Below, one piece after another: positions 804 through 1,447 of a DNA stretch of 39,169 nt. The stretch's first letter is position 1, and each line of letters begins with the position of its first letter. Origin of the DNA: Planctomycetota bacterium (lineage in GTDB: Bacteria > Planctomycetota > JAJSAM01 > JAKLKS01); NCBI GenBank assembly GCA_023150535.1, contig JAKLKS010000008.1:1-39169 (forward strand). Reading direction: 5' to 3'. The notes beneath the pieces are model-generated. The model worked only from the letters and a program-made list of their open reading frames with translations, ran no database searches and had not been told where the DNA came from. The position numbers were made by a program, and so were the translations under genes.

Positions 804-1196
804 ATGCCGACCATCACGCTCGTCCGCGAGGGCCGCACCCTGGAGGTGCCGCCGAACGCGATCCTCAGGACCGCGCTGCTGGACGCCGGCGTGGAGGTCT
901 ACCGCTCCCCCGACGACCTCGTGAACTGCAGGGGCAACGGCCTCTGCGGCACCTGCGTCGTGGAGGTCGAGCCGGCGGAGGCGGTCTCCGGCGTCACCTT
1001 CAGGGAGAAGGGCCAGCTCTGGAAGTACGGGGACCGCCCCATGCGCCTATCCTGCCAGGCGAAGGTGATCGCCGACTGCCGCGTGTTCACCCGCCCCCAG
1101 CTCACCCAGGGCTGGATGGGGCACCCCTTCTACGCCCACCTCAAGGAGGGCGTGGGGAAGGGCCCGGCGAGGGAGAAGAGCGACTACCGGGCCTGA
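804..1196 (+). CDS. 2Fe-2S ferredoxin-like protein
   Basis: CRGNGLCGTCVVEV ... LSCQAKV cysteine pattern (C-x5-C-x2-C ... C); ATG 804 preceded by GGGAGGGAAGG. Confidence 0.85.
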   Translation: MPTITLVREGRTLEVPPNAILRTALLDAGVEVYRSPDDLVNCRGNGLCGTCVVEVEPAEAVSGVTFREKGQLWKYGDRPMRLSCQAKVIADCRVFTRPQLTQGWMGHPFYAHLKEGVGKGPAREKSDYRA

Positions 1197-1447
1197 GACC
1201 GCTCCCAGGCGGCCTTCACCAGCGGGTCGATCACCTTCGCCAGCGCGAGGTTGTCCGGGAACTCGCCGGTCTTCAGCTTCGAGTACACGAGATCGCTCCC
1301 GACCGTCACCTCGAACTTCCCCCCGTCCGAGGGGACGAGGACGAACCTGCCGACCTTCCGCTTGTAGCGATCCATGAGGTCCTGGACCAGGCCGACGGCC
1401 TGGGGCTCGTAGTTTCAGACGGAGCAATAGACGATGGTGATGTCCAC
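1184..1447 (-). CDS. SelW/Rdx-like thioredoxin-fold selenoprotein with in-frame UGA (Sec) at 1415-1417
   Basis: Minus strand from GTG 1447 with AAGGAGGT 7 nt upstream: (V)DITIVYCSV[U]NYEPQAVGLVQDLMDRYKRKVGRFVLVPSDGGKFEVTVGSDLVYSKLKTGEFPDNLALAKVIDPLVKAAWERSQAR; C-x-x-U at the usual CxxU/CxxC site; the ORF track only reports the 3' part (1184-1375). Confidence 0.85.
1387..1403 (-). promoter_or_regulatory. Candidate bacterial SECIS hairpin just downstream of the UGA codon
   Basis: Minus strand CCAGGCC-GUC-GGCCUGG, perfect 7-bp stem; loop G is 19 nt after the UGA. Confidence 0.65.

Follow-up and report, generated by a model that had tools for sequence, protein, structure and literature searches.

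A reading frame interrupted by UGA

A short minus-strand gene near the start of the window (the whole stretch of DNA analysed, 39,169 nucleotides from a Planctomycetota bacterium) raises the question of whether a UGA codon within it ends translation or encodes selenocysteine. Mechanical gene calling on this strand yields just a truncated ORF at positions 1184-1375, as a preliminary description of the sequence had expected of standard gene callers. Continuing upstream through the UGA gives the peptide VDITIVYCSV[U]NYEPQAVGLV..., in a frame that stays open to the TAG ending at 1184 (Table 1). Translation places the UGA at the second redox position of a CxxU motif (YCSVU, residues 7-11 of the read-through protein), and both this placement and the GTG start with its strong Shine-Dalgarno sequence 7 nt away are as the preliminary description had proposed. 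The reading that we favour, and hold to be almost certain, is that the minus strand at 1184-1447 carries an intact gene for a SelW-like (Rdx) thioredoxin-fold selenoprotein with a Cys-x-x-Sec site, whose UGA is read by means of the selenocysteine machinery and a hairpin.

Table 1. Coordinates of the selenoprotein gene, its signals and its neighbours in the window
Feature	Position	Strand	Evidence and remarks
SelW-like (Rdx family) selenoprotein gene	1184-1447	minus	87 aa, GTG start, TAG stop, single in-frame UGA; UGA-read-through translation, PF10262 and TIGR02174 matches
UGA codon, putative selenocysteine, CxxU second redox position	1415-1417	minus	UGA at the same codon in 103 distinct homologs
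Cys codon (TGC), CxxU partner	1424-1426	minus	sequence; YC or FC in 103/103 distinct UGA homologs
GTG start codon	1445-1447	minus	homologs have ATG/GTG starts at the aligned position (MKIxIEYC..., VKLRLEYC...)
Shine-Dalgarno AAGGAGGT, 7 nt upstream of GTG	1455-1462	minus	sequence
bSECIS hairpin CCAGGCC-GUC-GGCCUGG (or, counted as 6 bp, with loop C-GUC-G)	1387-1403	minus	fold; kept in 13 homologs
2Fe-2S ferredoxin-type ORF (Fer2, PF00111)	753-1196	plus	converges on the selenoprotein gene; ends overlap by 13 bp as called
NusG-family protein (PF02357)	1751-2302	plus	upstream of apparent polysaccharide export and polymerase genes

The family assignment depends on reading through the codon. The Rdx profile PF10262 (cut-off 22.6 bits) matches the read-through protein with 68.1 bits over profile positions 2-72 of 74, and the truncated ORF with 38 bits over positions 26-72, the C-terminal two thirds of the profile; this agrees with the earlier claims that the ORF lacks its N-terminal part and that the gene belongs to the SelW/Rdx family. 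In a search of the source genome the Rdx match runs across the UGA (E = 7.4e-16). The read-through protein also passes the CXXU_selWTH model TIGR02174 (53.7 bits, cut-off 34.2) and does not reach the Campylobacter equivalog model NF041051 (70.9 bits, cut-off 88). Its nearest solved structures are the SelW-related 2FA8, 2OBK, 2P0G and 2NPB, the last of these, mammalian selenoprotein W, being a weak match (E = 0.0026). A search of plasmids for the gene gave no match.

The ferredoxin-type ORF of Table 1 was tried as a conserved partner and rejected: tblastn finds no copy of it in the flanks of those homologs that were fetched with longer flanks. The NusG-family protein is possibly an RfaH-like regulator of the polysaccharide cluster.

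The hairpin downstream of the UGA

The hairpin has a perfect 7-bp stem whose first nucleotide is the 12th after the UGA, and its loop begins at nucleotide 19, with 18 nt between. The preliminary description had the stem right; the 19 nt that it gave as the distance of the hairpin is the start of the loop. The bSECISearch model, as set out in PMC13188914, has a stem of 4-16 bp and a loop of 3-9 nt whose first or second nucleotide is G, at a distance of 16-37 nt from the UGA. The window hairpin agrees with it in stem (6-7 bp), loop (GUC or CGUCG) and spacing (17-18 nt).

A selenoprotein gene could nevertheless contain such a stem as a by-product of GC-rich coding, with no function as a bSECIS, and folding energy gives this alternative some room. 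The hairpin is as stable as dinucleotide shuffles of the same GC-rich DNA (z = -0.89, with 35 of 200 shuffles as good), and therefore its significance comes from the comparison with homologs. Averaged over 62 homologs against a synonymous-codon control, the folding z-score is -0.57 just after the UGA versus -0.14 to -0.37 further downstream. We dropped z-scores as proof of a bSECIS, since they are too weak both for the window alone and for the 62-homolog mean, which makes covariation and codon bias the evidence that is needed.

Covariation is present. The same stem is found in 13 homologs, the window included, with GGC or AGC as codon +8 after the UGA and a loop of CGUGA, CGUGG or CGUCG. Their alignment has 97.4% of stem cells paired, and its covariation score is reached by no shuffle. 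Three of the six pairs show two-sided changes (C-G to U-A, A-U to G-C and G-C to C-G), two of them resting on one homolog (L062) and the third on four. When the 3' partner is slid by 1-3 nt, pairing falls from 97% to 1-41%. These observations, the fit to the model, and the presence of another hairpin 4 nt downstream in homologs that lack the window loop all speak against a by-product of coding, which we regard as very unlikely. A bSECIS-like hairpin in the bacterial range, as first described, is thus borne out by the covariation and by the loop, stem and spacing rules.

Two hairpin positions in one family

About 82 other loci have a different hairpin, with a 5-nt loop (mostly GGUCU, AGUUU or AGUCU) located 4 nt further downstream, GGU or AGU as codon +8, and 87% of cells paired. 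The window has the rarer of the two positions (13 versus about 82 loci). The window-class position also pairs at 77% in the 82-locus class, so that the pairing count alone cannot separate the classes there, but codon bias can. Glycine at +8 is encoded by GGU in 42 of 47 cases versus 63 of 615 at the other positions in these genes (p about 6e-32), and serine at +8 by AGU in 40 of 50 versus 25 of 390 (p about 3e-30), both values being uncorrected for relatedness. The peptide V-S/G-L is written as GUC-GGU-CUG or GUC-AGU-UUG/CUG in the 82-locus class, and as GUG-AGC/GGC-CUG, with the loop C-GU-G/C-A/G, in the window class. GUG is never paired with GGU or AGU, and the sole intermediate is the window itself, with GUC-GGC-CUG.

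Two family-level groups (f44 and f57) each hold both classes, and in the window's order the window's own group (f1) and f2 are of the window class, while the two members of f3 are not. This distribution points to repeated switching or gene transfer. When hairpin position is mapped onto a protein tree, 6 changes are needed; the tree is built on 78 columns and poorly resolved, and a single origin of the position may be compatible with its starred branches. On balance we consider it fairly probable that the bSECIS of this family can sit at either of two positions separated by 4 nt and has switched between them more than once, that SelB tolerates the shift, and that the coding constraint is satisfied largely by synonymous codon changes. 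Three further Rdx-UGA homologs (L112, L126 and L138) fit neither position by simple stem count; their bSECIS may be interrupted or shifted.

The codon across the phylum and the selenocysteine machinery

For comparison we used a sample of 296 genomes from the same phylum. An Rdx gene is found in 110 of them, and in 108 of these it contains an in-frame UGA. The preliminary description had named homologs that end at this codon or lack Cys or Sec there as evidence against a selenoprotein; the phylum homologs carry UGA, with 103 distinct UGA loci among those read, and Cys in 3 and Gly in 3. Three genomes with a CxxU copy also contain a paralog that has Gly (GGC) at the Sec position (L075, L076 and L077, reading YCVPGNY or FCEVGNY); these paralogs are possibly non-redox duplicates.

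Rdx-UGA is associated with selA: a strong match occurs in 100 of the 108 Rdx-UGA genomes, and both Cys-only genomes lack one (Fisher p = 2e-14, uncorrected for relatedness and indicative only). Several of the 8 Rdx-UGA genomes that lack a strong match are incomplete assemblies. The split between strong and weak matches is our own, drawn from E-values, and a borderline genome (G122, 4.5e-81) was put with the weak ones; the count of 100 in 108 is untouched by this, because that genome has no Rdx match.

The source genome assembly (4.4 Mb, 529 contigs, 88% complete) contains all four genes that the preliminary description had proposed to search for: selA (490 bits), selB (above cut-off, the N-terminal domains and the C-terminal end sharing one frame), a single tRNA-Sec or selC (80 bits, above the Rfam gathering score, with the anticodon TCA confirmed by ARAGORN) and selD (384 bits). 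A UGA also lies within the selD frame (LTSLSHGAG-U-ACKVPQEDL; locus L019, G000:C521:10378-11301, minus strand) at SHGAG-U-ACK, which we take to be the known Sec/Cys site of SelD, and SelD of this genome is very likely a selenoprotein as well. Matches to formate dehydrogenase alpha in the source genome have no internal UGA; among these families the selenoproteins found are therefore the SelW-like protein and SelD.

With this machinery, Sec-tRNA(UCA) would be made with SelA and SelD, and SelB would deliver it while binding the hairpin just past the UGA, at which the ribosome would read the codon as selenocysteine. The product is predicted to be most likely a small thiol/selenol oxidoreductase.

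A different amino acid at the UGA, whether Trp, Gly or Cys, placed there through a reassigned code or suppression, might be suggested by the Gly codon of the three related paralogs. The chance of this is negligible in the face of a full set of Sec genes with tRNA-Sec(UCA), a UGA in selD, a conserved hairpin that fits the bSECIS model, and the CxxU form of the family elsewhere (PMC1088965 and PMC2398784). A true stop, in an Rdx gene that has decayed or was misread, would explain why gene calling returns the truncated ORF only, but the start and Shine-Dalgarno sequence are intact, protein similarity is unbroken across the UGA, and the UGA lies at this codon in all distinct UGA homologs read; its presence in 108 of 110 Rdx genomes, with the Sec machinery and the selD UGA, therefore excludes a pseudogene, chance stop or sequencing error for all practical purposes. 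The selenoprotein that the preliminary description proposed is thus supported, and from this combination we infer the insertion of selenocysteine itself.

Implications and comparison with known systems

Truncation of this gene by mechanical calling is to be expected phylum-wide: Rdx-UGA is present in 108 of the 296 sampled genomes, and annotated proteomes therefore likely under-report the family. The Rdx family also offers a natural data set for the evolution of the bSECIS, in which the spacing tolerance of SelB is testable, since the hairpin, which overlies a stretch coding for a conserved peptide, has shifted by 4 nt. The only point of mild novelty here is that a single gene family has two alternative bSECIS positions; we found no description of such a case in a limited literature search.

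The gene itself belongs to a known selenoprotein family and is an ordinary representative of it. SelW-like proteins are found in the Sargasso Sea (PMC1088965) and GOS (PMC2398784) surveys, and in the latter they are, with SelD, the most widespread. Very few Cys homologs of the Sec form are described among Sec-using bacteria in PMC1794560, and the ratio of UGA to Cys in the phylum agrees with this. An interaction with glutathione is noted for the SelW family in PMC1088965, which together with CxxU suggests a thiol/selenol redox role for the bacterial family.

Bacterial SelW-like selenoproteins (PF10262, TIGR02174; PMC1088965 and PMC2398784) share with the window gene a short thioredoxin-like protein, an N-terminal CxxU, and a UGA followed by a bSECIS. 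We see no essential difference from them, the score below the Campylobacter cut-off apart. Mammalian selenoprotein W (2NPB) is homologous, by a weak match, and both proteins have CxxU, but its SECIS lies in the 3' UTR, whereas that of the window gene is a bacterial SECIS within the coding region. From the canonical bSECISearch model, in the form given in PMC13188914, the Rdx family in this phylum differs by its two hairpin positions 4 nt apart.
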